From Phytophthora quininea (Eukaryota; Oomycota; Peronosporomycetes; Peronosporales; Peronosporaceae): a stretch of DNA of 64,000 nt. Under the pieces are notes generated by a model. The model did not search any database. It was not told where the DNA came from and saw nothing but the letters and a program-made list of their open reading frames with translations. Each line of letters starts with the position of its first letter. Within the stretch, counting starts at the first letter, position 1. Shown here piece after piece: positions 26,909-54,623 of the stretch. The position numbers and the translations under genes were made by a program. The DNA is taken from contig JAAVTG010000542.1 in the NCBI GenBank assembly GCA_011947345.1, positions 301,661-365,660 of the forward strand, in the 5' to 3' direction.

Positions 26909-26991
26909 ATGGGCAAGAAGACCGCTCGCTACTCCGAAGATCAGTCCCCCAACATCTGCCCCCGACAGTCGCCGCGAAACGACGACCACTA
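26909..26991 (+). pseudogene. Element B leader and first gag codons (fragment)
   Basis: After LTR B comes a 64-bp leader, then an ATG (MGKKTARYSEDQSPNICPRQ) cut at 26991 by solo LTR C. The sequence resumes, reverse-complemented, at 47421 (ACTAAGCAACATGCGG...), upstream of the B gag body. Which ATG is used is unclear; a second one lies at 47380 on the minus strand. Confidence 0.5.
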
Positions 26992-27993
26992 TGTGGCAGA
27001 GCGCGATTTACCGAAACCGCTCTTGCGCACGGTGCCCAGACTACCGACTGCGGAGGGGTACTCCGATATGCCGTGCGTGTGCTGAACTCTTCCTCACCTT
27101 GTGTACCCGTCGGCGGGCGGGTAGCGCTCTTCAGGTGGCTTGGAGATGAGTGGGTTGATGGTCACTTGAACCGACTTGGGCAGTCGCGGGACCTTGGGCA
27201 GCAGCGTGGATATGCTTCGCCTGCTGTCCGGGTTGGGGTGTCGTCCTCCGAGCGAGTCTTCGAGCTCGTGGTCGACGGGCCAGACGCTGTCTTGGGCCCT
27301 TCTTGTCCTTGTCCTTTCCTTTGCTTGGGCTCTTGCGAGCGTAACCGCTTCCGATAGCGGGATCTCAGGGGTGAGAGTGATCACCGGCCAAAATCTTCCG
27401 GGCCCTCTGCGACTTGACGGCGTGGGTGGGCCAATACCTTCCCGTGCCCGATGCCTCTTGTGCGTTCCAGGGGAAAATCAACTCTGTTTGTTCTTTAGCA
27501 TTCTTCTCTATCCACTACAGCTGTCTGCACTCCTCTACACTATCCTTACTTTGCCCTTGCTTAACGTCTTCAAAAGAGAGCACCCAAGATCTTGTCACCG
27601 CTCATTGGGTATTACTCAGCTCCGCCGTCCTTCAACTTGCTTGCGCATCACTCCTTCGCCGGGCTTCCTTTGCACAACATCCACTCGATCGTAGAGTGCC
27701 ACCAGAGAGTGATTGCATACCCACATAACTGCACATGACCGATGCACAGTGATCACCGGAAGTGATCGTGATCGCGTGTCGAAATGATCGCACCTGATCA
27801 ACCGAAAGTGACCGTGTACCGAAATGATTGCTCGTGATCGACCACCAATGACCGACTAAAGTGACCAACCCAAAACTGATCGCGGTCGGTCGGTCGGGAG
27901 TTCTCCGAATGTTCTCTGTGTGTCTCACCCATCCCTCACCATCATCCAACAATCGCGGTCTCTTCCCATCAATCCGCAACAAGCTTCACCACA
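26992..27993 (+). repeat. LTR C, copy 1 (1,002 bp, solo)
   Basis: Starts TGTGGCAGAGCG and ends GCTTCACCACA, with TG...CA ends and a short inverted terminus TGTGG/CCACA. It is nearly identical to the reverse complement of 47422-48419; the length difference is one CGGT unit near 27880 plus about two substitutions. The flanks are ACTA (26988-26991) and CTTC (27994-27997), so there is no duplication in the present order. The part at 27720-27870 is packed with GATC and CGAAATGATCG-type words. Long ORFs inside it are mirrored in the other copy and resemble no protein. Confidence 0.85.
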
Positions 27994-29900
27994 CTTCAAT
28001 GGCTTCAAGAACGAGCCCGAATCCATTTTGGGCTTCTTAGGCTCCTGGCTCTAGCACTTATGTGGAGGGAGCCCGGAAATCGACGGTTTCAGGCTCCCTA
28101 ACTTTGGCGAACTCCAAAAGCGCTGGTTACGGGTTCGTGTAACCGCGGGCTCGTCTGAGGCTTCTGGGGTCATTTTCTATGGAGCAGTGATGGATGGATG
28201 GATGGATGAAGAAGCAGGCACAATAAATAATGCTATCCCAGCCTTCGTGAAGCCCTAGTATGAGAAGTACCCGGATTTTGGCGAAAAATCCAAAACATTT
28301 ATGGACGATGCTAGCGCCCATGTTTTATAATCCATGTTGCGTCCATATTTTGGTAATATTTTCAGTAATTTATTCTGCTCAAAATTCAGAATAACAATCA
28401 GTTCGCGAGTCAAGGAAAGGTGATTTGGGGGGTAACTATAACATCGTAAGCTCCGCTAAAAGCTAAATGAAATTGCGGCTGTCAGTATCTTATACAGTCG
28501 TGTCTAAAACCGACATAACAGTCTTTCGCTGCCACACTGACTCTATTGTTCACGAGAAAAGCAGCAAGCGGCATATGCTGTTGTTTTGCGTTGTTTAGCT
28601 AATAATTATTTGGCCAAATAATATAAAGTATAATCGATATTCCACTAATTCTGTCGTTGTCCATAGAAATGTGCAGAACACTTATTTAATAAAAGACCAA
28701 CTGATTGGCCAATAAGAAGGCGTGAAATTGGTTCTAGCGACGCGAGAGCATGTCGGATCGATACGGGGACATCGTGAATATTTGCCTGTTAGATTAGCTC
28801 TAGTACATGCCAATTATCATAAGCTAACAGTCTCTAGCGGAGCTTTTGACTTTTGAGTCTGCCAAAAAGAGCAAAAACCTTTACTTGACTCGCGAACTGA
28901 TTGTTAAGCAATTTCCGATTTATTTTCCAGGGATAAGCCTTTATCTTTTAGCGGCAACTATCTGCTTGTGTGTGATTCGTAGCTCGCTTCATGCGGATGG
29001 TTGTACCTTGCCTTTCCCACTGTATGAGGCTGCATAGTACGTGGGGCAGAGCTGGCATAGATTTAATGAGCTTCAGTAGTCTGGACACTTGGAGACGAAT
29101 GGAGAGTTTGAGTGGCAAAGGCTGCATATGCAGAATAACCGCTACTGGATTTGCTGGAGAACACTTTAGTTTTATTTATTTTCCTACGTGTTAGCCTTTA
29201 TACCGACCGGGTATTGTCCAGTCATATCGAAGAACCATTCAGGACATATTGCATAAGTCTGAATTTGAGTCCAAATCTGCAGGGATTGAAGTATCTATGT
29301 AGCACCAATACCAAAACACACATAAAACCTGCAGCTGTATCTATCAAATTGTATCGGTGTATCTGTACACTCCACAGTGAAATCAATCCCCAATTTCTTC
29401 TTGGAGGTGTTGCTTAGATCCATTGCAAGTTACTCCAAAGCGCGCTTGTAGCTAGTCGTGTTACGAGAATCATAGAAGTTGACCTTGTTGTCACGATAGT
29501 CTACTACCAAACCACACCAGTGAAAATTGCCAAAGTTTACGGGGATTAATATTTACCAGCCCTGTTCGAAATATCCCAGTGACAGGCGGTTTATACGATC
29601 GGGTACGATCTGCCCTCGGGTTCGTCGTGTTGCAGGTTTTGCATTGGCAATTCCGCCTTTCATAGCGGTTCCGGTATTGTTTTGCAATCGAGTACAAAAT
29701 GCACAGATGTTATTCACATTGATTAAAATGTGATCGAACTTGCCGTTCGGTTAAGTGTTTAGTTTTGCGGTATAGGCAAAGACCGGTTTTCGCCATCAGA
29801 TTCAGAAGAATACGCATCCTCCCGTCGATGGGCAGGCTTTGATCATTACTAGAGGTTGTCTGAGTCGCTTTTGTACAAGTCGATACACGAATAGTCATTA
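27994..29900. other. AT-rich non-coding stretch, MULE 3' flank
   Basis: No gene recognised in 1.9 kb. It includes a (TGGA)n microsatellite at 28188-28207 and a block near 28305-28375 (TAGCGCCCATGT, TTTTCAGTAATTTATTC) resembling 19450-19500, a candidate second MULE end. Short ORFs (e.g. 28846-29037, 29151-29417) have no recognisable features. Confidence 0.45.
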
Positions 29901-30114
29901 GAGGTTTTTAGCAGCTTTCATACGGTTCATGCTAGCAACCGTTTATTGATCCGTCCGTAACACGACAAATAAGCAGTTTTAGCACATCGTGCTTAGGAAC
30001 GGTTTGGCCAGCTGGAGTTCAGGTAAGAATAGACACAAGCTTGCCGAGAAATTAGCATGGAGGGTACGGAAGTGCTCACTCTTGTAAAACCTATCTCTCC
30101 AGCACGTCAGCAGT

Positions 30115-30926
30115 ATGACCATGGTGTTTCGCTTCTCCTACGAGCAAGACCAAGAGATCATGCGCGAACTCATCCGCCTCAAGCCTTTCGCTGCTAAAAG
30201 AGGGACAACGACAAAGGTGCGGATGGACGTAGCGGCCGGCGTATCAAATGCGATCAAGGTCACACTGAATGTGAAGCAGGTTCGAGATCGACTCAACGTG
30301 CTCAAGGCGGGGTCTCGTGCTGATGAAGCGGTGTCAGCTCTGGCCAGTGGTGTAGAAGAGTCGCTGAATGCCGTCAATGTTCAAAGTCATCATGATGAAC
30401 GTTCAGGGCTTGTACGTGAGTACCTGTCTTTGGAATTCATGCACAAGGATAAAAACAACAGCAAAAGGACGGCAAACAAAAGCGAGAAGAGGATCTTGCA
30501 CGCTGCACGGAGGAGATTGTTCGTGAAAGCACTCGCCGGCGCGCAATGAGGGGTCAGGAGGAAGCAAGCCACACCAGCTCTGACAGTGAAAACAGTGACG
30601 ACGGTAGTACAACATCGTCATTTTTGACGAACGTGTCCGCTTTGACGAGTACATCCGAGACGCGTAGCGCTACCCGAACGCCTCCAAAAGGTCGAATGCG
30701 TTTACACGCGAGATTGAACGCCGGGAGAAGCGGCAAAATCTTCAATTTGACCTATAAGTACGTGAGCAAGAGCAGACACAGTCATTTCGAACAGCGACTT
30801 GCCTTTGAGAGACAACAAGCGGAGGATAGACTATTATTTGAGGAACACACGCAGGCTAGTAATCGAGAGCTGATCCTAGCATGTGCAAAGCTTTTCAGCG
30901 ACACACTTCTCAACAGAAAGAAATAA
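30115..30926 (+). CDS. Harbinger 1 Myb/SANT-like accessory protein
   Basis: Frames 30115-30549 and 30546-30926. A tri-helical DNA-binding N-terminus (FSYEQDQEIMRELIRLKPFAA; NVKQVRDRLNVLKAG) is followed by a basic linker, a Ser/Thr-rich stretch and a C-terminal coiled coil (FEQRLAFERQQAEDRLLFEEH). In Harbinger elements this second protein brings the transposase to the nucleus and the ends. One frame break lies at 30546. It converges on the transposase, whose stop is about 17 bp away. Confidence 0.7.
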
Positions 30927-30943
30927 TGATCAATACATCGCAA

Positions 30944-31985
30944 CTACATTGGATTTGACTGAGAATATCTGCTCCAACGTCGACTGCAAGTACTCACGGA
31001 TATTGGGGGCTTGACTTTGAAGTAGTCGCTGGCTGTGTTACCACCGCGCAAGCACGTTATACAGTTAGTCATCAGCACGCCCACACGATACATTTTGCCC
31101 ACGGGTTGCGTTCCAGTCCTCAGGTTCGACTTCACGTCCAACGTTTTCCAATAGTTGAGTATTTGCGCGTAGGACCACTCCACGGAGACCATCAGCTTAC
31201 TCATGGTGCTATTAATTTGCAATTGGGCTGCTGTCATATTGCCGAGAGCTCCTTCAAACGGGCTCAACATCGCGTCATCTCGGCCGTAGGCACAATCTCC
31301 AAAAATTCGGTAGTCCTGGAAGCGTTCATCAGCGCGAATTTTCCCCGCAATACAAGACGCTCTGTACATCTTAATGTCATGGTTGCGCCCCGGAAATGGG
31401 CCGAAAAAATGCGAGATCATCCCGTCCGGCGTCACGAGTGACTGGAACTTCAAGCTGTGCTTTCGTTTGTGTCCATTATACATGTACTGCTGCGTCAAAT
31501 ACTTCCGCTTCCCGCATACTTTCCTTGGCTGCGCGCGGCATATAACTCTCACAGTACCGTCGATAAAGCACCAAATGTTGGTGTACGGAGCTCCTGCGGC
31601 AAAATTGCTTCGAAAAACTCGCTCAATTTGCCGCTGAGAAGATCTCCACTAAAATCCAGGGTTCTCGAGAATTGAGAGTCCAGTTGATCCAACAAATGCA
31701 GGAAAATGTTGGACAACCCACTTGGACTGCGCCCAAAAAAGCACTCAAGTCTACCCAACGCATCGGGACCGCTAGCTTGTACAGCACGATACAGACAGCC
31801 TCCATACCTGTCGCTTTTGTCCTTTCGCGCGTGACGATATCGTCAACCTCCATGAGCGACACAAGCGTCGCCTGCTCTCTTTTGTTGAACCGAAAAGTTT
31901 TGACACACAAGTCGTCCAACAAAGCGTTAAGGTTGAACGGAGCCCTTAAGGGGCCATCACCTCCGGTGCAGACAAAAGAAAGCAA
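30944..31985 (-). CDS. Harbinger 1 DDE transposase (HARBI1-like)
   Basis: Frames 31985-31623, 31758-31549 and 31552-30944. The N-terminal helical part includes LVSLMEVDDIVTRERTKATGMEAVCIVLYKLA. The first catalytic Asp lies in an IDGT motif around 31560, in a frame joining two of the ORFs. It is followed by YNGHKRKHSLKFQSLVTPDG, the second site GPFPGRNHDIKMYRAS and then FGDCAYG, as in DDE_Tnp_4. It cuts and joins the element ends. Two frame breaks (near 31640 and 31555) interrupt it. Confidence 0.8.
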
Positions 31986-32416
31986 AAATTACCGACGCCT
32001 CAAACACGTTTCCCGCAGCTTGGGCCTGCCACCAGCGCTGGAGAAGATGCGCATGCTTGTAGTGACGAGGGACGCCGCGAGTAAGTGAGCGACAGTACCA
32101 AACGACCTGGCTGTCAAGATCCAACGAATCGTCGTCGAATAGCTGCTCCGTCGTCGCGGTTTGGAGAATTGAAAAGTGGCGTTTAGCAACTTCACCACGG
32201 TTTGCATGCGATATAGGACCCGTAACTTTTGATGCTCATACCGTAACTTTTAGCTGTAAATTCCGGTTGCACCTGTTTCATTCGGTTCGAGATGCTGGTT
32301 GAGACGGTTGATTGCCATATGGTTAAGCGGGAAAAAGCTTCATTTCGGTTGTGCTAAAAACCTCTATTGCGTCATCGCGTTTGACTCTTTTCGCTGTCGA
32401 ACATTTCTCCACTGAG

Positions 32417-33380
32417 CTAAACGAAAGCCAAGTGCTCTCGATATTCCTCGTCATCAGATATCTCAGTCAGCTCGCTGCTAATAACTTGAACAGCACTAAT
32501 TGCCTCCTTATACTTCTCTTGAGATGCCAACGCACGCTTTCCGGCAACAATTTGGAAAGCATCGTACTTAAAGGGCTGGATTGGTGCAGGCTCTTCGATG
32601 GCGCTAAGCCATCTATCATCCACACAGTTTAGAGGGATGCATCCACCTTCGTGACCGATTTTTCTACGATATGCCATAGCGTGTTTACATGGTAATTTCA
32701 TCGTAAGTGCGAAGAACGTGTGCATTTCCACGAGGTCAAACTCACACGATAGGTGTTTCGATCAGGTCGAATTTGTACTCGTTGACTTTTCTAACAGCAA
32801 CGACATACGGTTTCTCCACATGCTCAGCTACGTAATGGATAGTAAACCGCAATACACCATTCATCTCCTCGTCATAGTTGCGATTTATGCGTCTACCCAC
32901 ACGAGCCTTACTAAATGTGTACTCATTTGATGAGCGCATGTCGGAGTTTATGATAGCTTGTATGCTGTCTCTCATATTCGAACGTGCAGTCACGCCGTCC
33001 TTAAAGTGGCCAAACCAACTCTCTAAGTGATTGTCTGTGGGAACTTGAAAATGCGGAAGCCTTGAACGCTTGTGCAAAACCCACATGTCTTGACATGACT
33101 GCCAATTTTTCTCCATGTACGAAAAACTCATCAAGTCCAGATCTGTTACACAGCAATCGCAAAGCTTCATAGTCGGAAGCGTACTCATCAGCATTTTGTG
33201 AGTAGATCATATTTTGTAACAATGCGTTAACTGCGTCATGATCTTCTTCTGACAGCTTGTCGTACTCAGATTTTCGCGAAGCCGTCTTCAAGTATTTGAC
33301 AACATGGAAAGAGCACACAAGAATTTGTGTGCGGGGAAGCATGCCTTCAGTACTCGAATCGCATTCAAAACTTATCCACC
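32417..33380 (-). pseudogene. MULE transposase, C-terminal part with SWIM zinc finger
   Basis: Frames 33342-33001, 33194-32742 and 32731-32417. Starts with VRVIMVDK, then QILVCSFHVVKYLK, the last part of the MULE DDE domain, then helical motifs (FQVPTDNHLESWFGHFKDGV). It ends with a SWIM finger around LPCKHAMAYRRK (CxC/CxH type). This belongs with the zinc-finger start at 19977-20464. It has several frame breaks and is separated from the middle part by the 33430-34960 insert. Confidence 0.75.
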
Positions 33381-33429
33381 ATTATGACGCGAACTTTATC
33401 CAGAGCAACATGAGGCGACGGCGGTGAAC

Positions 33430-34960
33430 CGAAACCGCCCAGGGTAGTATAGTGCGGCGCCTTCGAGGTGGCTTTGGAGCTGGGTTCCTGGAACGAGCCC
33501 TGGTTCCAGCCCTGGATCCACTTGAAGAACCCCAGGGTACGCAGTCGAAATCCTGGGTGGCGTGTGCTCCTTGTGGCAATCCCCTTCGAGGTTCGTTTAA
33601 TTCAATCTTTGTCACCAGGATCCAAGCACAAAAGTGAGTACACGATGAGTTGAGAGTTAGCGCCGACACTCACTTCCCAGGAACAACCCTCCTAGCGAGA
33701 ACCAAGCCAACAACCAACGCACAGAGTTAATATACCACAATTAATATGCAGGTTCCTTAATTATTTGCACTGGCCCAAGGAACTGGGCCACAAACGTCGA
33801 GTGTTGATGAGTACTAGTTTCCTGGACCACGCGACGAGAATATTCAGGTACTCAGATGTGTTATCACGTGCACCACCTCCTTTTACCTGAAACACAAACA
33901 CTTGGGTCAGAAGGACTTTCGAGCTCAAAGCGAGTTGCTGTCCCTGTATGCGGTAGTCAATCGAGCGAGAGATTCTGGAAGGTGACTACAGATGCCCCTC
34001 CAAAACCGTCGTTAACATGAAGTGGTACACCCCAATGCCGCCCAGGTGTCCAACTAGGATATGGAATAGATCGGATCACTCCAAAGCTGGCCTGCCTTGG
34101 TCCTCCACCTAACTTGGACTTGAGTTGGTGGAGTTCACACGGACGACCAGTCCTAGCCGATGCGCCCGGTAGGGATAAGCTTCACAGTCACCAATTGGCC
34201 TTGGACCTCTTCCGGACCGCAAGCCACTTGCGTGTTAGATGGCAAATTGAGCTCTGTTTATATGTTAGGCTATTTACTATAGACTTTTCCCTTGCACGTC
34301 GGTTTGACTTGATCTTTGTATGAATACGAGTGGCAGGCGGTTTTAGATTGCGCGACCCTCCGCAGTAGTGACCTTTGAGTAGGCGACGCTTGGTCCGGTG
34401 ATTTTTCAACCAATATCCGGAAAGATATCACCAGGATGCGTGCTTGTAGGGCACGGTTTCAGGGGCATAAGTCTCTGCCGCCTCGATCCAAGTGATGGAA
34501 GGCAGATCCTAGGCAAACCTGTCGTTTGCCACTTGAAAATGGTCGGTTCTCCTGGTTCCAGGTGCATCTACCTTGTCCTGGACGTGCCTACTTGGTTTCA
34601 GGGTACTTGAGAATATCTTGACTTGAGTATAGTAGATTCAGACATAGTTGCATCGCGATCTTGGTTGCAGTGCTTGGATCGTAGTACACCAACATGAACA
34701 CTCTTGGATCCAAGTAGCCACATCCGAATTCTTGCAAGCCAGGTTGGACCCAGGGATGAGTCAACATTCACGCCTTGGATCCCGGAATGACAGACTTGTG
34801 AACACCATATCTCTTCTCAATCACGCTTGATAGTCCGAGTCAGATGACACGGCATCATCACTGGGCAGGTTCAGGCTGAGACAGTTGTAGTAGCATGGGT
34901 ACGCACCCATCAAACTTAAAATCTGGACCAATCACAGGGCAGAAAGGGGAAAATCGAAGA
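33430..34960. other. Unrecognised 1.5-kb insert inside the MULE gene
   Basis: MULE coding similarity stops near 33415 and resumes near 34975, so the intervening sequence was inserted. It has no coding ORF I recognise. It carries repeated words such as CTTGGATCC, CCTGGTTCCAG and CCTTCGAGGT, and could be a non-autonomous LTR or solo-LTR element. The ends and target duplication could not be set. Confidence 0.45.
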
Positions 34961-34974
34961 GTTGCATCGTGTCA

Positions 34975-35366
34975 AACTCCATTTACACGTTTGAAGTGGT
35001 CTACTGCACGGAGCATATGCCAGTTAGCATTTTTCTCAAGCAAAGAATGCTGAACTTGTTGAGTGTCGCCGTTTTCATCTACGACCATAAACGTACATAG
35101 CTGATAGTTGTACCTGTTAGCAGATAAAACATTAGAATAAGGATAAGACCTTTAGAATAAGGAAACGGGGAAACAAAGCTGATACCCACACGTTCATCTT
35201 ATGCGTACAATCGACCAGAATGAGCTCAGGAAAGCGAGACACCGTACAGCTCATGTGACGAGATGAAATACTGATAACTGCGGTTATTGTCATATCATTT
35301 TCATCAACTGTGAGAACGTTACCGTCGACACCTGCAAATTCAGCCAAAACCAAGCCGCAAATATTG
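34975..35366 (-). pseudogene. MULE transposase, middle DDE part
   Basis: Read from LTR A toward lower coordinates: LHNICGLVLAEFAGVDGNVL, then FPELILVDCTHKMN, where the Asp of LVDCTHK is the first catalytic residue. Next, in another frame, comes FMVVDENGDTQQVQHSLLEKN, the strand and turn that precede the second Asp. It is cut at 35366 by LTR A and near 34975 by the unknown insert. With the inversion undone it directly continues the N-terminal part at 20464. Confidence 0.7.
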
Positions 35367-35621
35367 TGTAATGTTCTCAGAACCGATCGTCACACTGCAA
35401 GTTGTTGGGGCTCTCGAGGAGCTCGCGAAATCCTCTCGTTGCTACCCGTAATGATAGCCGCTGACTGACAATCTTATCTCAACCACATGCATGATTACCA
35501 GTTGAAGATCCCGCTCTTCACAAGGTCTCCGTTTCCGGGTTGAGCCGATCTGTTAGTTTTCTCATCCTGCTTTTTGCACAATACAAGACACGAACTCTGA
35601 ATTCTGAAGTCCAACGTTATA
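35367..35621 (+). repeat. LTR A, 5' copy
   Basis: Starts TGTAATGTTCTCAG and ends CCAACGTTATA. It is the inverted match of 20467-20720. The A gag follows after a 92-bp leader, so this is the 5' LTR of element A. Confidence 0.85.
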
Positions 35622-35713
35622 ATTAGTAGCACTTGTTGGTCACACTTCAACTCCATTCTACTCGCCGCGCCACCCCGACCCGTTTGAAAAGACTCCGTCT
35701 CGCCCACTCAAGT

Positions 35714-36561
35714 ATGGAAGAGCAGAACCCCGTCATGGCGCTTCTGGATGGTCTCACCCAGGCCATTCACGAACTCTCCCACACGATGGCCTCGCAGAAC
35801 AACGATTTCGGACGTCAGTCATGGATCAGCTGCAACATCAACAGGCAAACAGAGAATTCAAAATTGAGGGCGCATCTATGCCAAAATTTTATGGCAAACC
35901 AACCGAGAGTGTGGACGAGTTTATTTTCGAGGCCAAGTTGTTCATGAACGGAAAGAACATCGATTACGACCACCCTGGGAACCAGGCGCGAGTGGTGGCT
36001 ATGTTGACCAGTAACCTCCGCAAAGGAGCTGCCTCGTGGTATCACAGCCACATCATGATCGATGAAGAGCCTATTGTCTCAGTTGACGTGTTTGAAGCGG
36101 CTCTGCAGGATGAATTTCTTCCTCCCGACCAGCAACACAGTTTGCGCGCTGCGCTGCGTGCATGCAAGCAGACGAGTGACGTGGAAGAATATGTGTCGCG
36201 GTTTCGCAAGATTATCACCCAGATCTGCGATATGTCTGCCTTAGACAAGGTGGATCACTTCTCTAAAGTCTGAGACTAGCAAGGAAGTTGACTACCTCAA
36301 CTGCAACTCGCTGAAGGAAGCTATTTCGGCGGCTCAAGCCTACGAACGAGATCATTTTGGTGGTCGTCATCAACCAAGTGGACGGCGCGACGGACCGGAA
36401 CCCATGGACGTTTCCTGTGTGACGGCTCGCCCAACACTCGAGCAGTGTCGCCGTCAGAGACTGTGCTTTTACTGTCGCGAACCTGGACACCGCATCTCGG
36501 ACTGCCCAAAGAAGCGTCAGAGAAACGACAGAACCCAACGGATGTAATGGAGTGTCCGTTG
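35714..36561 (+). CDS. Element A gag with CCHC zinc knuckle
   Basis: Frames from ATG 35714, then 35821-36273 and on to about 36546. An N-terminal helix (MEEQNPVMALLDGLTQAIHEL) is followed by a retrotransposon gag domain (FIFEAKLFMNGKNIDYDHPG; AASWYHSHIM; FEAALQDEFLPPDQQ; VEEYVSRFRKIITQI), then a basic linker and the knuckle LCFYCREPGHRISDCPKK. It forms the particle shell and binds RNA. Coding is cut after CGTTG at 36561 by LTR B. Two frame breaks (near 35820 and 36270). Confidence 0.8.
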
Positions 36562-36818
36562 TGTCACGTGCTCTGGTAGAAGTTGACGTGGGTGAGTCTT
36601 CACTTGTTGGAAAGGTGGAAAAATGAAGACTTATTGATGTTATGGTGGCTGCAAGCCTCTAGCTACAGCAAATTTGAAAGCAAAGAGTAGGAAGTTATGA
36701 AACCAACGAACTGCGATCGTGCAGCTCAGTGCCGAGGAGGAACTCGAAACCTTCGAGGTGCCGTTGGGTCAGGAATTGCGACTGTGTCTTGGCGATCCAC
36801 GGGCTTGTGTCCGTGACA
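36562..36818 (-). repeat. LTR B, second copy (3' LTR, intact)
   Basis: 257 bp; in element sense it runs TGTCACGGACACAAG to AGCACGTGACA from 36818 down to 36562. It follows a polypurine tract CTGGAGGAGGAAG at 36819-36831, which fixes it as the 3' LTR of the minus-strand element. This uninterrupted copy defines the Crypton insertion point in the other LTR B. Confidence 0.85.
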
Positions 36819-36989
36819 CTTCCTCCTCCAGAAGCGCCGTTGCTCTCGTAGGCGGCAAGGTGTCAACATAGTGACGAACTAGTGCCAGCACTTGGAGCAA
36901 GTTGCCCAGCAGTTCTCAGGATGGCTTGATCGATGAATCCAGCCATTGAACCTTGAATTGACGGACGCCTCGGTAAGTCCGATGGCTCA

Positions 36990-38951
36990 GAATGTCGGCC
37001 ACGAGATGTCCCTCAGAGCCGTCCGCTACGAGAACAGGTTGGACTCGAGTCTCTCGGGGTGGGGATCTTGATCACGGTGGTACATTCGTAGACGGGAAAC
37101 GTGATAGTCGGGGTGAAGTCCCAAACCCGGCGGTAGGTCGAGAGTATAGGTGTCAGGACCCGCGATATTGAGTATCCGGTAGGGGCCAATAAAGCGCGCA
37201 GCATTTCCGCTTGCCGTCCGTGCCCATGTGGATAGTGTCGAGGTTGCGGGTATCGACTAGCACGCTGTCACCCACAGCGAAGGTGATGACTGGCCGATTG
37301 CGGTCGTAGGAATCGTGCCAACGAAGTTGGACTGCCGCCATCGCATCTTGGGCTTCAGCTAGAATTACTTGCTGATGGTGTACGAAGGTAGCCGCTCGGG
37401 TGGATTCGGACCCTGGAACTGAGCAATCCGCAACGGAGCGCGGCTGGTATCCGAGGACCGCCATAAAAGGCGACATGCCAATCGACGAGTGCACTCGCGA
37501 GTTGTATGCGAACTCGGCGAGCGGAAAAAGCTGATCCCAATTGTCTTGGTGCGGATTTACGTTACGAAGTGTCGTAAGTACTCGCTGACAAACTTGATTG
37601 TCGCCTCAGACTGTTCATCCGTCGATGGTTTAAACGCAGTACTGAGGTGAAGGCGAGTACCCTGCAGCTCCATGATGGAGCGCCACATAGCCGCCGTAAA
37701 TTTGGGGTCGCGATCGGAGACGATTGAGCGTGGTAGTCCATGCAAACGCTGATAAAAGGAGCAAAACAGCTGAGCACTCGAGGCCGCCGTCGCCGTCGCG
37801 TGAGTAACGAGGAAATGCGTTCTCTTGGTGAGGCGATCCACAATCACGAGGGCCGCATCGTAGCCTGTAGTGGTGGTGGGAAGTGGTGTAAGGAAGTCCA
37901 TACTGATGTCCAGCCATCTTTGTTCAGGAATTTCAAGTGAATGTAGAAGTCCCGCAGCTTTCCCACGCACAGCTTTGTTGCGCTGGCAGAGTTCGCACAA
38001 TGCGACATAGAGGTCAACCGCCGTAGCCATGCCCTTCCAGTAGAATTTCTCGAGGACGTGAAGCAAAGTCTTCGCTTGTCCTGGGTGGCCGCGGGTTGGG
38101 ACGTCATGTTCCTCGAAAAGAACACATTTGCGCAGACCTGGAACATCAGGAACGCAGAGACGTCGCGGCGAAGCGGGTCGCAGCTGGAAGTAGAGTAATC
38201 CGCCGTCGAAGGTGAATCGCCGGCAACGGCGACTAGATTTTGCGTTATCCGCAAGGATATCGCGCACAATTGGGCCGAAATATTTGTTCGAAGAATAACC
38301 TTGGCGGCATTCCCGCTCAATATCCATCGCATGTGCCGTCTGATGAAGAAGTACTTCGTCTGCATCTGGTGCTCCATTCGTAACCATCGAGTTGATCAAA
38401 GTCGAGAGGCTGATAGCTCGAGCAGTTCCGTCATTCCAGTCTGCCCGTCTAGAAATCGCATCAGCAACGACGTTCGTGTTACCTGGCACCCATTTGAAGA
38501 GCGGCTGGAATAATGCGAGCTCGTTCAGCCAGTGGGCTAAGCGCTGGGAGCATGTTTGCTGCTGCAAGATACTCTCAATCGTGTGATGATCCGTGTTCAG
38601 AAAGAAAGGTCGATCCAGCAAGTACACCTTCCAGATCCGCATCGCATGCAACGCAGCCAGCAATTCATTTTCCCACGTCGGATAAACCAACTCCGGCTTA
38701 GTCAGCTTGCGTCCGCCATAAGCGATGGCCTGCTCGCCTCCGTTGTCATCCAGCTGAAATAGGTAGCCACCCACCGCAAAGTCCGACGCATCGACGTTAA
38801 CGTGGAATGGCCTGGTGAAGTCTGGATGGGCGAGGACGGGAGGTGAGGTGAGCTTGTCCTTCAGTGTCGAAAACGCATCCAGTTGCTGGGGAGTGAGTGT
38901 GATTGGGTCCTGAGGACGCTTGTTCCGGGTCAATTCCGTCAATAGCGCCAC
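36990..38951 (-). CDS. Element B RNase H and integrase
   Basis: Frames 38951-37557, then 37494-37153 and 37204-37013. RNase H: FHVNVDASDFAVGGYLFQ, NELLAALHAMRIWKVYLLD, LNTDHHTIES, TNVVADAISRR. The zinc finger HHCC shows HDVPTRGHPGQAKTL and YVALCELCQRNKAV. Integrase core: DISMDFLTPLPTTTTGYDAA, IVSDRDPKFTAAMWR and STDEQSEATIKFVSEYL; the usual Gly after TD (TDGQ) is Glu here. The C-terminal part (ALLAPTGYSISRVL; FTPTITFPVYE) resembles the tail that follows the core, but frames are broken there. Confidence 0.85.
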
Positions 38952-40261
38952 TTACTCAGCGAAACCATCACAAAATCGCATCACGTAGACGCAAGTCCCG
39001 ATGAATGCTTGCATATCCCGCTTAGTCTTGGGAAGAGGCCAGTTGCGGATACTTTCGCACTTCTTAGGGTCCATCCGCACCCCGTCACGACCGATGAGGT
39101 CGCCGAGGCACGGGATCTTGGGCTGGCAAAACACGCACTTTTCAATCTTGATGTAGAGATTCTCTTGCGCGCAGCGCTCCAATACTTTGTCGAGAGCTGC
39201 GAGGTGCTCATCCATCGACTCGGTTTCGGTAAACACGAACAGATCGTCAAAGTAAGTTTGACAGAAGCTGTTGAAGTCCGAGAAAATCGCTTGGACTAGT
39301 CGATTGCAGCACGATGGACTACTCGAGATACCCATCGGAGTGACGAGGTATTCGAACAGTCCGTCCGGCGTTGCGAAGGCCGTGTAAGGGATGGAGTTCT
39401 CGCTCAGCTTTACTTGATAAAAGCCCCAGAGTAGGTCCATCGCGGAGAACAGTTTGCCGCGAGCCATCGCGCGCAAGATTTCGTCCTTGCGCGGAATTGG
39501 GTTCGTCGGAACTTTGATCTTTGAGTTGAGTCCTCGAAAATCGTGTACGATCCTCCATTCACCAGAACTTTTGCGCACGCAGAACATGGGGGCACAATAG
39601 GGGAAGAGGACGGCCTGATGATTCCTGCCTGTAGCATCTCGCGAGCCCAAGATTGTATTGCGGCTTTCTGCTCCGGGGAAAGCGGGAATTGTTTCCGATG
39701 GATAGGTGTGGCGTCTGCAACTTCGATCGTGGCGTCCATGCCTTCGTGTCGAGTAGGAGGAACGTTAGGCAGCGTGGAACGAAACACGCTATCGCGATAC
39801 TTGCTGACGACAGGATACGCTGGCGAGGTTTTTAGAGCTTGCCATGCGTCGTCAGCTTTGGGACTTGCTGTATCCGGCGCAATGAACAGACACAACTCAT
39901 TATCTTTCTCGCTCAGCAACTTGACCACGTCACGACTCGGAACAATTCGAGTTCGGCCTTGGGTACCGTTGTGGTCATGCTGTAGATAAAACTGTAAGAG
40001 CGCGAGGTCCTCCCTGACTGGAAAATGGCATCGGACTTGCGAAAAGCGCTGACTAGCGATGCGACGAGCTTTCTGCTGTGGCGCGCACGGCTTGAATGGC
40101 AACGACTTGGCTCCTTGATCACCCTCAGGCAATGATCTTGGTGTAATTACTCGCTTGGACCAGTCGAATGAGGGATTGACTTCGGCTAGCCAAGGCATTC
40201 CCAGCAATACATCTTGAGATTCGGGCACCTTCAGGACGAACGCCGTGGAATCATAGCGAGG
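38952..40261 (-). CDS. Element B protease end and reverse transcriptase
   Basis: Frames 40228-39410 and 39650-38952. The protease end VLLGMPWLAEVNPSFDWSKR is the strand and IDW region. A linker follows, then the RT N-terminus (SPEQKAAIQSWAREMLQAGI; RPSSSPIVPP). The second frame has CVRKSSGEWRIVHDFRGLN, FSAMDLLWGFYQV, and the catalytic QTYFDDLFVF with YFDD intact. It ends FIGTCVYVMRFCDGFAE. The front of the protease is beyond the D insertion, at 46060-46222. Confidence 0.85.
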
Positions 40262-40266
40262 GAATC
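40262..40266. repeat. Target-site duplication of element D, left (GAATC)
   Basis: GAATC directly left of the D LTR; repeated at 46025-46029 directly right of the other LTR. Confidence 0.95.
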
Positions 40267-40523
40267 TGTTGTAAATATGGTAGCACTTACTCCTGAACAG
40301 GCCAAACGGCTAGAGCTGCTGTATTTACGGTAACTTTGGCGAGGAAGCGTGAGAGTTGGAAACCAGAGGACTTCACTACAGACTCTGGTCACGACGTGGA
40401 CACTTGATAGAAAATTGTGAAGTAAATGTATTTGAACGCTGCTGTATGCCTTTTCGCTACGCGGCTCTCCGCTACGATATCTTAAACGGTTTTTTCTGAA
40501 CGAACGGTGGAGGAGCCACCACA
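40267..40523 (-). repeat. LTR D, 3' copy (257 bp)
   Basis: Identical by eye to 45768-46024. Ends TGTTGTAAATATGG and GGAGCCACCACA on the + strand. In element sense it is preceded by GAAGGAGGTCG, a purine tract. The frame that encodes the chromodomain stays open through all of this LTR. Confidence 0.95.
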
Positions 40524-40599
40524 CGACCTCCTTCAGAAAGAGACCTTCACCTCGGCCATTGACGAATCGTCTGAATAAAAGCTGGGTTCTTTCGAGAAT

Positions 40600-43500
40600 G
40601 CGCTGTGATGTACGAGTCGGGAGCCCGTTTGCCTTTCGATGGTACTCACGAATTAAACCAGGGACAGACAACAAGTTTACTGTGGGTTCCCAGGTAATGT
40701 CGTCCCAACGCCCGACCCACTTGCATTTATACTGCTCAGTTCCGTCGCGGTTGATACGATGATCGATAATTTTCTCGATAAGATGCCCCTCAGACCCGTC
40801 TTTCAGTCGCAACGTCGGGACAGTCGAATCCCGTACACATCCCGAAGTGTCCTTAACAAATTTTTCAGCACCATCGTGTGAAATACGGGGTGAATTTGCA
40901 GTTCACGTGGCAAATTCACTTCATAGCTCGCTCCATCGTGATGAACTTTCAGAACTTCATAAGGACCTATCCATTTTGATGCAAATTTCCGCTGGACTGC
41001 CCCCACTGTCGTGGGATTGAAGTCCTTTGTCGAAATGAGGACCATCTCCCCACTTCGAACTTTTGGTCACGTCTTCCTCGGTCGTAATGCAGCTTCATCT
41101 TCTTTGCGCTCGACCGCAGTTGAGCCTGCACCGCTCGAAGTATACTCTCCAAATGAGCCACGAATTTCGTTGCTGGTTCTTTCCGAGTGTCTGGCAACGC
41201 TAAATCGGTTGGAAGTTTTGGGGAATATCCTAGATCTGCTACAAAGGGACTCATTTCGATGCTGGATTGATAGCGATTGTTGTAGGCAAATTCTGCCAAC
41301 GCCAAGTAGTGGTCCCAATCGTCCTGAAAACCACTAACGTAATGGCGCAAATAGGATGAAAGAATCCCATTTATTCGTTCCACTTGTCCGTCCGTCCTCT
41401 GATGGTGAGCCGACGCTAGTTTAAGCTTAGTGCCAAGAAGTTTTGCACACGCCGACCAGAATTTGGACGTAAACTTGGAATCTCGATCCGATATGATGTC
41501 GGATGGCAGACCGTGGTGTCGTACATACACCTTCACAAACAATTCTGCTAAATCTTCCGCAGTAATCGTGGAGATGGTTTCTACGAAGTGGGCCCGTTTG
41601 GTCAGCCTGTCAGCAATGACCAAAATGGTGTCATAACCATTTGTAGTTTCTGGTAACCCGGTAATAAAGTCCATACCAATTGATGTCCATCTTCCAGTTG
41701 GAATTTCGAGTGGGTGGAGCAACCCTGGTGCTTTTCCAGTCCGGTGCTTGTTCCGCTGACAAGACTCACAGGTTGCCACGTAGTTTCGAACGGTTCGATG
41801 CATTCTCTTCCAGTAGAAGCGTTGTTTAACGGATGCGATGGTTTTTCGATTCCTGGATGCCCTGCACTTGCAATGTCATGGAGCTCCCATAGAATTGTGT
41901 TTTGCAATTCTGTCGCCTCTTGAGGAATGAAAATACGAGATTCTTCTCCATCTACCCAGCGAATAAGGTTTTCTGTTTCGAAGAATACAAATTTTGCGTT
42001 GCCTCTGGGTTGTTCAGGTAGGTTATCTCCTCCAAACCCAGCATTCTTTGAGCTAATCGGATCATCGTTAATAGTGACTTTTGTTGCAGGCGTCGCGCCG
42101 CGTTCATTTGCCTCTGTTTCTGCTGTACAAAATCGATCGCAAAGTCCGGACGACGGCTCATTGCGTCTGCAACCGTGTTGGTTGTCCCTGGAATGTATCG
42201 AAATCGCAAATTAAACTCGGACAGCAAATCATACCATCGACAAATTCGACGGTTTATTTTCCTCTGCGTCAGGACACGCTCCAACGAATGATGATCGGTC
42301 TCCACTAAGCAACCTCCATCAAGTAAGTAAATTCTCCAAATGTTTAAGCAATGTACAATCGCTAACATCTCTTGCTCATGCGTGGGATAATTTAATTCTG
42401 CGGCCTTCATCTTTCGGCCACAAAATGCTATAGGTCTCTCCACTCTGTTTTCTGTGTGCTGAAATAAAACTCCTCCCACAGCGAATCGAGATGCATCGGT
42501 TCTCATCCCGAACGGCTTAGAAAAATCTGGCAAAGCAAGTATTGGCGTGTTACACAACGCACCTTTTAATTCTTCGAACGCTTTGCGGTGCTCCGAGGTC
42601 CAGCTAAACACCCTTTTCTTTTGAGACTTTACCAATTCGAATAACGGTGCACTCATTTCGGAGTACGATCGGCAGAAATTTTGCACGTACACCGTTGTTC
42701 CCAGGAACGATTGTAAATCTCGAACTGCTCGTGGCTCAGGCCACTCCTGTATTACTCGAACTTTGTCAGGATCAATCCTGACCCCATCTCGCCCCACAAA
42801 ATCACCTAAGCACGGAATTTCAGCTGCACACAATGTCGATTCAGCTAGCTTCAGATACAATTTTTGTCACGACAGCGCTCAAATACTTTTCGCACTGCCG
42901 CTAGATGTGATTCCACATCCTGCTGCTTGGTAAAGACGTAAATGTCATCAAAATACGTTGCAGAAAAATCTCTCAGGTCCGCAAAAATACCCTGCACTAT
43001 ACGGTTAAACGTTGCAGGAGCGTTGCTTAGGCCCATTGGTATCGCAATATACTCGAACAATCCATCGGGCGTTTGAAAGGCTGTAAAAGGAATGTCCTTT
43101 TCGCGCATCCGCAATTGATAATATCCTGATAGCAGATCGAAACAGCTCAACCAAAACGAACCGCTCATTCTATCAAAGATTGAGTCCTTGCGAGGCATTG
43201 GAGAAGACTGACGAACTGTACGCTCGTTCATGGCACGGTAATCGTGCACCACTCGCCAACCCACTGCCTTTTGATGCAAAATGTAGGAGCCGCGTGGGGA
43301 GACTTGCTTGGCCGAATCAGACCAGCTTTTAGCATCATTTTCGTCCATTCCCGAAGTGCTGATTCCTGGCTTGGACTAAGTCTCCACTGCTGTCTATAAA
43401 CTGCTCCCGTGCCCTCTTTTATCTCCATCTCGTGCTCTCCATGGACAGGAGGTCCGACTGGCAATTCTGTTTTGAAAATCATTGAAAACTCTTCGAGGAG

Positions 43501-44328
43501 AGAGTATCCCGGATTATCCTTAAAACTTTCGAGGTCGGTATGCAGTTGATGTTGCTGCTTCTCGGTCGCGACTGCTGCCGACACCACTGCCTTCGCAAAA
43601 CCTTGCTCTAATAGCACTTCCGCATACAATGCGTTCACCGTATCAGGTGGTAGAATCGCCACAAACTCTACTTCTGGGTTTCGCATTAATTTGCGAGCTG
43701 CTTTAAGCGAAATATGCTTTGTAAATCCCCATCGAGCACAATAATGAAAGCTTCTTTCGGCCGGCCACTCGGGTGCCTTCTTCAGCTTGCTCGACTGGCC
43801 TACCTCAGCCCCGACAACGAACGGCTGTTTCTCAGACGGTCGTGACCTACTATTCCACCGCCGTAGCTCCTGTTCGTACTGCTTCTTGCTGTATAACTTG
43901 TCTGTTTCCCAGTCGATAATTGGCACCATGGCTCGCTTCCATGGCACTCCCAGCATCAGATCACATTTGTTTGGAATGAAACAAATATTAAAGTCGAACA
44001 CGAACGGCTCCATCTCATCTACTACGATTTTCAGCGGGAGAATTCTGTTCGGCACTTGCTCCGTCTTGCCATTCGCGTACGTCACCGCGAAGTGGCCAAG
44101 GTCAACGACGTCGTTCTCCCAGTGGTGTTTTCTTACAAATGCTTCAGTGATCCCGCAAAAGTCAGCTCCTTCGTCGAAAAACGTCTTACACCGTTGACGC
44201 TGAGCATTTTTCAGGCAAACGGTCTCTTTAATCAGATACTTTGCTGGCTTGTCAACTTTGCAGTTCTTCTGGAAGTAGATCCGATTCGTCGACTTTCCGG
44301 GGTCGAAGACCTTCGACTGCGAGGGCAT
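40600..44328 (-). CDS. Element D pol: protease, RT, RNase H, integrase, chromodomain
   Basis: Frames 44328-43228, 43348-42851, 42860-41952, 41907-41602, 41803-40967, 41045-40803, 40812-40600. Protease-like site CKTFFDEGADFCGITEAF (DEGA where DSGA/DTGA is usual). RT: VVHDYRAMN, CFDLLSGYYQLRM, SATYFDDIYVFT. RNase H: FGMRTDASRFAVGGVLFQ, DHHSLERVL, TVADAMSRRP. Integrase: HHCC (LHDIASAGHPG; CESCQRNKHRTG), GMDFITGLPETTNGYDTI, IISDRDSKFTSKFW, RTDGQVERINGI. Chromodomain: LIEKIIDHRINRDGTEQYKCKWVGRWDDITWEP, which directs integration to heterochromatin in related elements. All enzymatic motifs are intact. Breaks at 43269-43272, 42859-42865 and 41842-41846 are short A/T runs. Confidence 0.88.
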
Positions 44329-44369
44329 GATGGCTTCGTCAGGTCTCGGGACGCCATCCCCGGGACCAA

Positions 44370-45740
44370 CTAGTTTAAATCCGACTTGAAAGTAGCAAAG
44401 TCGGCTTGTAGTGAAGCGACCATTTCCAGCAGACGTTCAGTGCTAGAATGCGAAGCTTCCGTCGTCGAAGACGAGGCGTTATTCTTTTTCTTCAGCCACT
44501 TTGGCTGCATTTCGGGGTGCATTTGCCAGCATTTATCTCGTGAATGACCTTGCTCTGTGCAGGACGTGGGCGTGCACCTAGTCACCTCAGTCTTCTTGTC
44601 TACGTTATTGTTGGGAGCGGATTTACGATTCTTCCCCATGTTCGGATCTCCAGTTCCTTTGCTATTGGAATTCTTTTTGTTACCCGGCTCCGCTGTGCTT
44701 TTGCGCGGGTTCATTGCTCGAGCAGCATCGACGAGGCCTTCTAGCATCGTGTGCTGTTTGGTCTGCAGAAAATTCCTCAACTCTTGTGATTGCAGACCTT
44801 TCTTAAACAGAATCATTTTGAACTTCACAGATACCTCTGAGGTTCGCGAGAGGCGGACAAATTCCTCAATGTAAGTATCTAAAGCTCGAGAATCTTGTGT
44901 GCAATCAAACAAACGCGCCACTTGGTCCTCTTCACGAGATTTGGTCAGGAAACGCTGCCGCATTTTCTTCGCAATGCAACTCCATCGCCACTCACCGCTA
45001 TACTCCTGCAACAGCCAGACTTTCGCCTTGCCCTTCGTGTGGCTCATCATCAATTTACCAACACGGGCGTCAACTTGCGGTTGCTTGAAAAATAATCCAA
45101 AAGCACCGTGCCACATGATCATATTGCGAACATAGACATCAATGTCTTCGTTGTTCTCGCCACCAAAAATGGGTGTTTCCTTCTGCTTGAAGCTCTTAGT
45201 AATTCGTGACTCCAATTCATCATCATTATACACAGGAGTATTCGCGGGCATAGTTCCAACCACGTCCCATTCTGGATAAAGCTCAACATCTTCTCCAGCA
45301 TTTGCTTCCACCCCTGAGATGTTTGTCACTGTTGATCGCAACTCAGCTACCTCAACCTGTTGCTTGTGTACCTCTGCGCGCATTTGCTGTATTTCAGCGT
45401 GCATGGTTCTAAATTTTTCGGTGTGATCCATCATTGTTGCACTACTCTGACTAGAATATTGTTGCATCTGCTCAATTACTTGTTCCAAGAGTTGTTGAGT
45501 CCGGGACGCTTGCTCGGAGCTCTCATGCTGACGGGTCTCCACTCGAGTTGCAAAATTCGCCACCGACTCTGTGAGTACAGTCTGATCCCTCTGTAAAACA
45601 CGAAGAACATTCTCCCACCGGGGCAAATTCGTTAATAGATCGCGAACGTCGTCGACCTCTTGACCAGTAAGTCTCGGCGGCTGGGCTCCATCTTGGCCAG
45701 CGTTAAAGTCGTCGATTTCGACTCCAGGTCTGTCGTCCAT
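44370..45740 (-). CDS. Element D gag
   Basis: One unbroken frame of 456 codons. An acidic N-terminus and a long coiled coil (HTEKFRTMHAEIQQMRAEVHKQQVEVAELRS) precede a gag domain (VYVRNMIMWHGAFGLFFKQP; KVWLLQEYSGEWRWSC; RQRFLTKSREEDQVARLFDC; ALDTYIEEFVRLSRT). It ends with a basic Asn/Lys-rich tail and a Cys/His cluster (CTPTSCTEQGHSRDKC) that resembles a variant zinc knuckle. The ATG at 45738-45740 lies only 27 bases from the LTR end. Pol is in another frame after a short gap (stop at 44370, next frame from 44328). Confidence 0.88.
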   Translation of the reverse strand: MDDRPGVEIDDFNAGQDGAQPPRLTGQEVDDVRDLLTNLPRWENVLRVLQRDQTVLTESVANFATRVETRQHESSEQASRTQQLLEQVIEQMQQYSSQSSATMMDHTEKFRTMHAEIQQMRAEVHKQQVEVAELRSTVTNISGVEANAGEDVELYPEWDVVGTMPANTPVYNDDELESRITKSFKQKETPIFGGENNEDIDVYVRNMIMWHGAFGLFFKQPQVDARVGKLMMSHTKGKAKVWLLQEYSGEWRWSCIAKKMRQRFLTKSREEDQVARLFDCTQDSRALDTYIEEFVRLSRTSEVSVKFKMILFKKGLQSQELRNFLQTKQHTMLEGLVDAARAMNPRKSTAEPGNKKNSNSKGTGDPNMGKNRKSAPNNNVDKKTEVTRCTPTSCTEQGHSRDKCWQMHPEMQPKWLKKKNNASSSTTEASHSSTERLLEMVASLQADFATFKSDLN

Positions 45741-45767
45741 TGTCGCTACGACTCGAAAGCTCTACAA

Positions 45768-46024
45768 TGTTGTAAATATGGTAGCACTTACTCCTGAACA
45801 GGCCAAACGGCTAGAGCTGCTGTATTTACGGTAACTTTGGCGAGGAAGCGTGAGAGTTGGAAACCAGAGGACTTCACTACAGACTCTGGTCACGACGTGG
45901 ACACTTGATAGAAAATTGTGAAGTAAATGTATTTGAACGCTGCTGTATGCCTTTTCGCTACGCGGCTCTCCGCTACGATATCTTAAACGGTTTTTTCTGA
46001 ACGAACGGTGGAGGAGCCACCACA
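45768..46024 (-). repeat. LTR D, 5' copy (257 bp)
   Basis: Same sequence as 40267-40523. It carries the element's promoter. The bases between it and the gag ATG (45741-45767) must hold the primer-binding site; in sense they begin TTGTAGAGCTTTCGAGTCG. GAATC follows at 46025-46029. Confidence 0.95.
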
Positions 46025-46029
46025 GAATC

Positions 46030-47380
46030 CGGGTAGGTGTGCGGACAGCGTGCATGGGCGTCGAGGGACAAACGAGACGCGGCCTGCTCCCAGCTTTAGC
46101 TTCAACGGGTGGTTGTGTGCCTGAATCTTGAGGTTAAGCTTCTCCGCCAAGGCGGTTGTGATAGCGTTGAAGGAGGCTCCAGAATCGATAAAAGCAGAGG
46201 CAGTGGTGCCACTCACGGACACGGACTGCTCCAGATAACCATAAAGAGATTTTTCTGACGACTCAGCACTGCGTCATCGCGCTCATAGGCGAAGGCATGC
46301 TGAGTCGCAGAGGCTGGCTACGGTACTGCCGTATGGTTCTCGGTAGTGCAGCCTTTCTCGGCGGGCTGGCGCCCCGCCGAGATGTCTAGTTTTTGCGCCA
46401 GCACCCTTCCTCGGGCAGTCTGGCGACTTGTGGCCCTTGACCCCGCAGGTGAAGCACGTCACTTCAGGAGTTTCTGCAGTCGGGTTCTGGTTTGCGGAGA
46501 TCCACCTGCACTGCGGCCGCGTCCTGGCTGCTGACGGCCTGGCGTATTTGCGCTTGATGCTCCTGTCGGCAGACGAGTTCGACTTGGCTTCCGGGCATTC
46601 TCGAAGCATTCTCGAATCGCTGCGCGTGCTCGATCGTGTCTTGTAGGCTCGTGGGAATATTTTGGCAGATGTAGGAGCTTGTGTCGGCCCGGATATTCTG
46701 CTGGTAAAACCAGCGTTTGATCACGTCGGGAATCTCGACGGACGCCTGCGACAACAGGAGCATGAACTTCGACGTATACTCCTGCTGCGACCCCGTCACT
46801 TGCAACTCGTACATCTTCGTGAGGAGGTTGTATTCAAAGTCACTGTCCCGGAACCGAGCTCGGATGCGCTCCTTGAACAAGGTCCACGTCTGAGGTGCCT
46901 CGCCGACTGAGGCTTTAAATTCACGGTACCACGACATTACGTCGGGACCAAGAAAAGGAACCACCATGTTAACGAACCGCGAGTCGTCGGCTTCTCGCTC
47001 AGTGCTGTACGCAGCGAAGTGCTCTTCAATCTGGAAGATCCACAACTCCAAGTCCTCATCTCGTTTGCCGAGGAACTTGGGTGGGTTCGCACGCTGCTTT
47101 TGCTGATTGGCTTTCTACTGCTGAGCAAACATCTCACTCTGAAAAGCAGCCTGTTGCACCATAAACGCCTGCATCTGTTGCTGGTTATTGAGGACCGTTG
47201 CTTGCATCTGCTGCTGGCTCGCCAGCAAGGATTGTTGCTGCATCGACATCATCTGGAGCGTTTGAGCCATCATTTGCTCCATCTAGGGAATCGGAGGCGG
47301 GGCCGAGGTAGCCGATGGTGAGTTGGTCTGGGCTTGATCGCCGACAGGGTCTGCTCATTGCTTTCTTCTTGGGTCGGCAT
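46030..47380 (-). CDS. Element B gag, zinc knuckle and protease start
   Basis: From ATG 47380 (MPTQEESNEQ) through several frames. A Gln/Met-rich coiled coil around 47285-47110 precedes a gag domain at 47051-46464 (LWIFQIEEHFAAYSTE; FLGPDVMSWYREFKASVG; WTLFKERIRARFRDSDFEYN; QEYTSKFMLLLSQ). The CCHC knuckle VTCFTCGVKGHKSPDCPRK lies near 46440. The protease start ASAFIDSGASFNAITT (active Asp in DSGA) runs 46222-46060. It is cut by element D at GAATC, and the protease continues at 40261. An in-frame TAG and frame breaks lie near 47285 and 47110. Confidence 0.8.
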
Positions 47381-47421
47381 GCTCTGTTCTTGAGGATCTT
47401 GCTCGCCGCATGTTGCTTAGT

Positions 47422-48419
47422 TGTGGTGAAGCTTGCTGCGGATTGACGGGAAGAGACCGCGATTGTTGGATGATGGTGAGGGATGGGTGAGACACACAGA
47501 GAACATTCGGAGAACTCCCGACCGACCGCGATCAGTTTTGGGTTGGTCACTTTAGTCGGTCATTGGTGGTCGATCACGAGCAATCATTTCGGTACACGGT
47601 CACTTTCGGTTGATCAGGTGCGATCATTTCGACACGCGATCACGATCACTTCCGGTGATCACTGTGCATCGGTCATGTGCAGTTATGTGGGTATGCAATC
47701 ACTCTCTGGTGGCACTCTACGATCGAGTGGATGTTGTGCAAAGGAAGCCCGGCGAAGGAGTGATGCGCAAGCAAGTTGAAGGACGGCGGAGCTGAGTAAT
47801 ACCCAATGAGCGGTGACAAGATCTTGGGTGCTCTCTTTTGAAGACGTTAAGCAAGGGCAAAGTAAGGATAGTGTAGAGGAGTGCAGACAGCTGTAGTGGA
47901 TAGAGAAGAATGCTAAAGAACAAACAGAGTTGATTTTCCCCTGGAACGCACAAGAGGCATCGGGCACGGGAAGGTATTGGCCCACCCACGCCGTCAAGTC
48001 GCAGAGGGCCCGGAAGATTTTGGCCGGTGATCACTCTCACCCCTGAGATCCCGCTATCGGAAGCGGTTACGCTCGCAAGAGCCCAAGCAAAGGAAAGGAC
48101 AAGGACAAGAAGGGCCCAAGACAGCGTCTGGCCCGTCGACCACGAGCTCGAAGACTCGCTCGGAGGACGACACCCCAACCCGGACAGCAGGCGAAGCATA
48201 TCCACGCTGCTGCCCAAGGTCCCGCGACTGCCCAAGTCGGTTCAAGTGACCATCAACCCACTCATCTCCAAGCCACCTGAAGAGCGCTACCCGCCCGCCG
48301 ACGGGTACACAAGGTGAGGAAGAGTTCAGCACACGCACGGCATATCGGAGTACCCCTCCGCAGTCGGTAGTCTGGGCACCGTGCGCAAGAGCGGTTTCGG
48401 TAAATCGCGCTCTGCCACA
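47422..48419 (-). repeat. LTR C, copy 2 (998 bp, solo)
   Basis: Inverted match of 26992-27993, over 99 percent alike by eye. Flanks are TAGT (47418-47421) and GAAG (48420-48423). They do not match each other but match, complemented, the flanks of the other copy. Confidence 0.85.
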
Positions 48420-48700
48420 GAAGCAGTTGCGGGTTCGTCGTATAGCCGTTCGACTAGCCCGTGATTGGTGGAAAACCACCGAAGTTATTTGCAATCTTAG
48501 ACCGACACTGAAACTTATCCCAAGCAGCGCCCAAGATCTCTGCCGCTTTTTGGCTTGCAATGCCCCCACCACTTCTGCCCGTGTTCAACCCCCTAGCGCG
48601 GCCAAACTTCCGGTCGTCTGGCCCGTTCACGGTAGTCCCGCCGAGAGAAGCTGAGACGTCCTATATTTTTAAGTGGGGGTTTGCGCTCAATCCCAGGACG
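48420..48700. other. Flank of LTR C and start of hAT remnant
   Basis: No gene recognised. With the inversion undone, GAAG here continues directly from the complement of 27994 onward. Confidence 0.4.
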
Positions 48701-50860: not shown

Positions 50861-50869
50861 CGATCACAT

Positions 50870-54619: not shown

Positions 54620-54623
54620 TTGG

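Follow-up and report, generated by a model that had tools for sequence, protein, structure and literature searches.

Exchanged target-site duplications indicate a 19.4-kb inversion in a Phytophthora quininea assembly, likely produced by crossover between two inverted solo LTRs

A 19.4-kb segment of a Phytophthora quininea genome assembly lies opposite to the order seen in its uninterrupted relatives, and the likely cause is that the inverted LTRs at its two ends crossed over with each other. We analysed a window of 64,000 nucleotides, the terminal part of contig C532 (301661-365660 of 365660 bases), in an assembly of 87.2 Mb and 993 contigs. Our reference for the uninverted order consists of paralogs of the elements that the segment's ends interrupt, namely a repeat R, a retrotransposon A and a MULE-like transposase, and not of an orthologous chromosome. 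The flipped order is supported because these three sets of relatives agree with it and because flipping restores three target-site duplications, those of the two LTRs and that of a second retrotransposon, B. The initial annotation had proposed that crossing over between the LTRs, or a misassembly through them, explains the arrangement; the inversion itself is supported by our analysis, and between the two causes the evidence leans towards crossing over.

The segment (27994-47421) is bounded by two solo LTRs of one family, family C. LTR C1 (26992-27993, plus strand) interrupts element B in its gag region, and LTR C2 (47422-48419, minus strand) sits within repeat R. The two copies are inverted and 99.4% identical over 1002 alignment columns, which confirms the positions, orientation and near-identity first reported for them. 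Both are full length at both ends, begin with TG and end with CA, and have no element body alongside, as solo LTRs do, with the 4-bp duplication of each appearing only after the flip. As assembled, the plus-strand flanks read ACTA-C1-CTTC and TAGT-C2-GAAG, and neither LTR has a matching pair. Flipping 27994-47421 gives ACTA/ACTA at C1 and GAAG/GAAG at C2, both matching at 4/4 positions, so the earlier claim that a single flip restores two duplications at once holds. The C1 duplication is divided between 26988-26991 (ACTA, plus strand) and 47418-47421 (ACTA on the minus strand, TAGT on the plus), and the C2 duplication between 27994-27997 (GAAG on the minus strand, CTTC on the plus) and 48420-48423 (GAAG, plus strand). 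The chance that two random pairs of 4-mers from the window would both match is 1.6e-5. At both LTRs the flipped flanks match over exactly 4 bp and not 5, as elsewhere in the family. Three differences separate C1 from C2, one indel of 4 bp and two substitutions, and all three fall within the last 111 bases; the first 891 bases are identical, whereas the closest of the 27 other copies compared shows 6 differences. This 891-base identity would fit gene conversion at the crossover, and would also fit two young insertions from one source.

We compared C1 and C2 with other members of their family in the assembly. A search of the contigs for family-C LTRs gave at least 41 matches (with the best 40 of 262 candidates scored), and the 35 loci that we read account for 37 of the 41 listed, the four weaker ones (71-78%) being left out. 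Twenty-nine copies, C1 and C2 included, are complete or nearly so at both ends. Six incomplete loci (L052, L053, L056, L061, L062 and L063) were left out of the count, as were four complete loci whose similar flanks suggest that they are copies of counted ones (L007, L044, L045 and L059). L038 and L048 had been merged by an automatic removal of duplicates based on 6 bp of flank, but their wider flanks differ and they were counted separately, and L005 and L006 were counted as one two-LTR element. Among the loci read from these at least 41 matches there are thus 22 other complete insertions, 21 solo LTRs and the one element with two. A perfect 4-bp duplication flanks 19 of the 22; L043 matches at 3/4 positions, and L055 and L060 have no duplication. 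A 5-bp flank match occurs at none of the family-C copies tabulated. Among complete copies whose own flanks fail to match, no pair other than C1 and C2 cross-matches in both directions. L005 and L006 (C606:32573-45384) cross-match one way, as expected for the two LTRs of one element; they have the same orientation, are 10.8 kb apart and 99.3% alike, have outer flanks AGTA/AGTA, and apparently delimit a full-length family-C element of 12.8 kb. When flanks were shuffled among the copies, some swapped pair arose in 6887 of 20000 trials, which at face value speaks against the swap. We set this estimate aside because the shuffle deals true partners back among the copies and so overstates chance. Elsewhere in the family, L056 (C88:17753-22244) has the flanks of L050, and about 1.5 kb interrupts its LTR; this is probably an insertion that differs between haplotypes.

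Repeat R provides one set of relatives. In the window it begins at 28163 on the minus strand, inside the segment, breaks off at 27994 after its first 170 bp, and resumes at 48424 on the plus strand outside the segment, where its remainder occupies 48420-56492 (48424-51562 and 54636-56492 match, with an insert between). We searched with the empty C2 site as the flip would restore it, that is, the flipped join with 600 bases per side and a single GAAG. Beyond the home locus there were 31 matches, of which 25 cover only the part left of the joint, two cover only the right part and four cross it. In these four (C176, C3, C508 and C666) R runs uninterrupted through the flipped joint in one alignment each, at 82-83% identity. 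They carry no LTR at the joint, and the GAAG letters themselves differ there. Because the four copies are 97-98% alike over 3.7-5.3 kb, these loci amount to nearly one witness. The insert in R (51563-54635, 3.1 kb) is composed of repeats found elsewhere at 93-96% and has no counterpart in C176, C508 or C666. Two further elements lie near the first part of R: a 515-bp element with 30-bp inverted ends (28392-28906), one end of which has 25 other matches in the genome and which resembles a MITE, and a 2.5-kb DNA transposon with inverted ends (29897-32368), which has a DDE_Tnp_4 match on the minus strand and three copies elsewhere at 93-96%.

The site of C1 lies in retrotransposon B, whose parts face opposite ways as assembled: the 5' LTR lies on the plus strand, against minus-strand matches to gag, reverse transcriptase (RT), RNase H and integrase. 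The 5' LTR (24305-24346 and 26625-26844, plus strand) is split by an insert and preceded by CAACG at 24300-24304; the start of the internal region, as read from the sequence, follows at 26845-26991 and is cut at C1. Inside the segment and on the minus strand lie the rest of the internal region (36819-47421) and the 3' LTR (36562-36818), with minus-strand CAACG at 36557-36561. Only after the flip do the outer flanks of B become CAACG/CAACG, a perfect 5-bp duplication. Its profile matches to gag, RT, RNase H and the integrase zinc-binding domain are above curated cut-offs and that to the integrase core is below; together with the LTR pair and the CAACG duplication that the flip brings together, they give B the features of a Ty3-like LTR retrotransposon. 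The B LTR extends further than self-comparison shows, as its 5' copy is interrupted by an insert of 2.28 kb (24347-26624), a partial relative of which occurs in C548. We had considered reading 24304-24346 as internal sequence of B, and ruled this out since C490, C776 and C91 show it to be the start of the B LTR. A DNA relative spanning the flipped C1 joint was found in none of 10 matches elsewhere, five lying left of the joint and five right, and the case for this site therefore rests on ACTA and on the anatomy of B. A third retrotransposon, D (40267-46024, minus strand), lies inside B and wholly within the segment, and serves as a control: its LTRs, 257 bp each, are identical, and it is flanked by GAATC on both sides as assembled, with no flip needed.

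Retrotransposon A is likewise divided between the two sides of the breakpoint. Outside the segment are one LTR (20467-20720, plus strand as aligned to the other copy) and an internal region (20721-24304, minus strand) with minus-strand matches to RT (22868-23296) and RNase H (22359-22949) and weak protease and integrase matches under the curated cut-off. Inside the segment are the other LTR (35367-35621, minus strand) and an internal region (35622-36561, plus strand) with a gag match at 35623-36270. As assembled, the gag match, on the plus strand, thus opposes those to RT and RNase H. C558 contains a relative of A that crosses the site where B is inserted, with no B and a single CAACG; it aligns there as one block of 291 columns with 78% identity. 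After the flip the flanks of A are CGATG/CAATA, matching at 3/5 positions. We did not count A as another perfect duplication since, with its LTR ends set by other copies, this match fits decay and proves nothing. Between the two LTRs of A there are 6 differences in 255 columns and one gap, between those of B 6 in 262 and two gaps, and between those of D none in 257, so that A and B are older than D; C1 is younger than B, because it sits inside it.

The third set of relatives comes from the split predicted transposase that flanks A, labelled MULE in the initial annotation. Its N-terminal half (19881-20466, plus strand) is outside the segment and gave no Pfam match, and the next part (35130-35366) is inside the segment on the opposite, minus strand. 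Relatives carry open frames of several hundred residues. Searched separately, both halves match ten contigs besides the home contig, and in nine of the ten they lie close together on the same strand with the N-terminal half first, with no gap in C454, C951, C273 and C749 and gaps of 21-62 bases in C290, C748, C952, C464 and C606. In the tenth, C3, hundreds of kilobases separate the matches to the two halves. Some of the nine score identically and are probably copies of one another; as several supporting loci are closely alike, both here and among the R copies, the independent witnesses are fewer than the loci. In addition, position 20202 meets flipped 35129 to within 1-2 bases in C3 and C78.

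The strands of the split parts, the relative in C558, the nine transposase contigs and the CAACG duplication bear out the proposal that one flip rejoins A, B and the MULE-like element in consistent orientation. The reading of the initial annotation would have failed had the halves come from different element families, or had the assembled flanks been contiguous at another locus. The split halves in fact belong to the same elements, and the joint searches found no such locus: outside the home locus only C543 and C752 are matched by both flipped-joint queries, with the matches there more than 300 kb apart, and none of the matches to either query supports the assembled joins. The locus therefore combines the features expected of an inversion between transposable-element copies, namely homologous copies in opposition, exchanged duplications and a reversed inner order.

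On the basis of these arrangements we propose the following history. Element A would have inserted into the MULE-like element, B into A and D into B. One LTR-C element would have inserted into the gag region of B at the target ACTA, and a second one, oriented the other way, into the nearby repeat R at the target GAAG. Both would have been reduced to solo LTRs, which, being inverted, would then have crossed over with each other and swapped their inner flanks, the order of these last two steps being one that we infer.

A contig that is presumably the other haplotype, from its similarity to the window, gives no information on the orientation of the segment because it lacks the nest. This contig, C915, is 99% identical to the window over 4141-12499 and 97% over 12500-20395; from 20395 it skips directly to 48673, sharing the two bases GT at the joint, so that about 28.3 kb, the whole nest, is absent. 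Truncated remains of the transposase and of R persist in it, and we therefore read it as a deletion and not an empty site. Searches of the contigs, one of them with the best 40 of 94 candidates scored, showed no further copy of the nest in either order. It is conceivable, if somewhat unlikely, that the block still flips: about 900 identical inverted bases would allow repeated inversion of the 19.4 kb in dividing cells, with both orders coexisting in the strain and the exchange keeping the LTRs identical, on a sole nest-bearing haplotype opposite one that has lost the nest. Three other observations concern these neighbouring sequences. In C915 (29086-29443) the 357 bp corresponding to 50734-51090 are inverted, with C176, C508, C666 and C3 collinear with the window, and judged by these alignments this is a micro-inversion in C915; we looked for short inverted repeats at its ends and saw no clear one. 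Over 4141-7073, C914 also matches, at 98% beside the 99% of C915, giving more than two near-copies in the assembly. The last 6 kb of the contig (57750-64000) are occupied by a 2.7-kb inverted repeat that is 95% identical and partly a common repeat.

By our inference the inversion arose through homologous recombination in the organism itself and is not a product of the assembler. Long identical inverted repeats are a classical cause of misoriented assembly, and the true genome could have the flipped order if the assembler had taken the wrong path through the 1-kb inverted LTRs and so reversed the segment. The 891 identical bases that the LTRs share would permit this, and the nest is about 16 kb from the contig end. 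However, repeats longer than these LTRs were resolved in the same assembly: six full-length copies of the 5.76-kb element D, the home copy and five others at 99%, are laid out at separate loci, and the 12.8-kb family-C element on C606 was assembled with both its LTRs. The window also contains no N, and together with the separate D copies this suggests that the reads were longer than the LTR. Because longer repeats of like identity were laid out as separate copies, we lean to crossing over and regard an assembly error as unlikely. A real inversion could also have arisen from breaks in the LTRs that were joined in another way, for example by template switching during replication. Such a route would leave identical joins, and the identity of the first 891 bases hides the exact point of exchange, but both switch points lie in the same homologous LTR and neither LTR is shortened at either end. 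A homologous crossover predicts full-length LTRs with the switch points inside them without extra assumptions, and we consider the alternative route very improbable. That there was no inversion at all, and that two unrelated LTR insertions with decayed duplications have flanks that cross-match by chance, might draw on the 3 of 22 other complete insertions that have no perfect duplication, but it can practically be dismissed given the probability of a chance double match, the rejoining of R, A, B and the transposase by the same flip, and the uninterrupted relatives that contradict it.

The preferred mechanism, crossover between inverted copies, is already known for DNA transposons of Drosophila; according to two reports it leaves the switch points in homologous sequence and the duplications exchanged (PMC3355041, PMC2775673). 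The account of Drosophila buzzatii inversion 2z3 attributes it to ectopic recombination between copies of Galileo, and like C1 and C2 those copies lie opposed at the segment ends with their target-site duplications exchanged (PMC2775673). The two cases differ in that the Galileo copies are DNA transposons flanked by 7-bp duplications and here we have solo LTRs with 4-bp duplications, in that the chimeric Galileo copies were demonstrated by variable sites whereas the first 891 bases do not distinguish C1 from C2, and in that the old order of 2z3 came from non-inverted chromosomes and ours from paralogs (PMC2775673). In a second Drosophila report, exchanged duplications are likewise present and are read as proof of ectopic recombination; in contrast to our case the element is a DNA transposon with 9-bp duplications, and one breakpoint retains only a 27-bp footprint of it (PMC3355041). 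Inter-element LTR recombination as treated by REANNOTATE is similar in that separate elements, once inserted, recombine through their LTRs and so rearrange the surrounding DNA, but the passages available there concern segmental duplication and LTR dating, and name inversions only as yet to be detected (PMC2672092). Among titles and the openings of abstracts, in a literature that mostly excludes subscription journals, we recognised no solo-LTR inversion with both duplications exchanged, and we claim no priority.

Cross-matching the flanks of solo LTRs that fail to match on their own could reveal inversions or misjoins across an assembly without a second genome. In the nest described here, the exchanged duplications and the stack of nested elements together form an unusually complete record of one rearrangement. 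Mobile DNA is known to rearrange chromosomes in this way, and the inversion, if real, would be a clean example.
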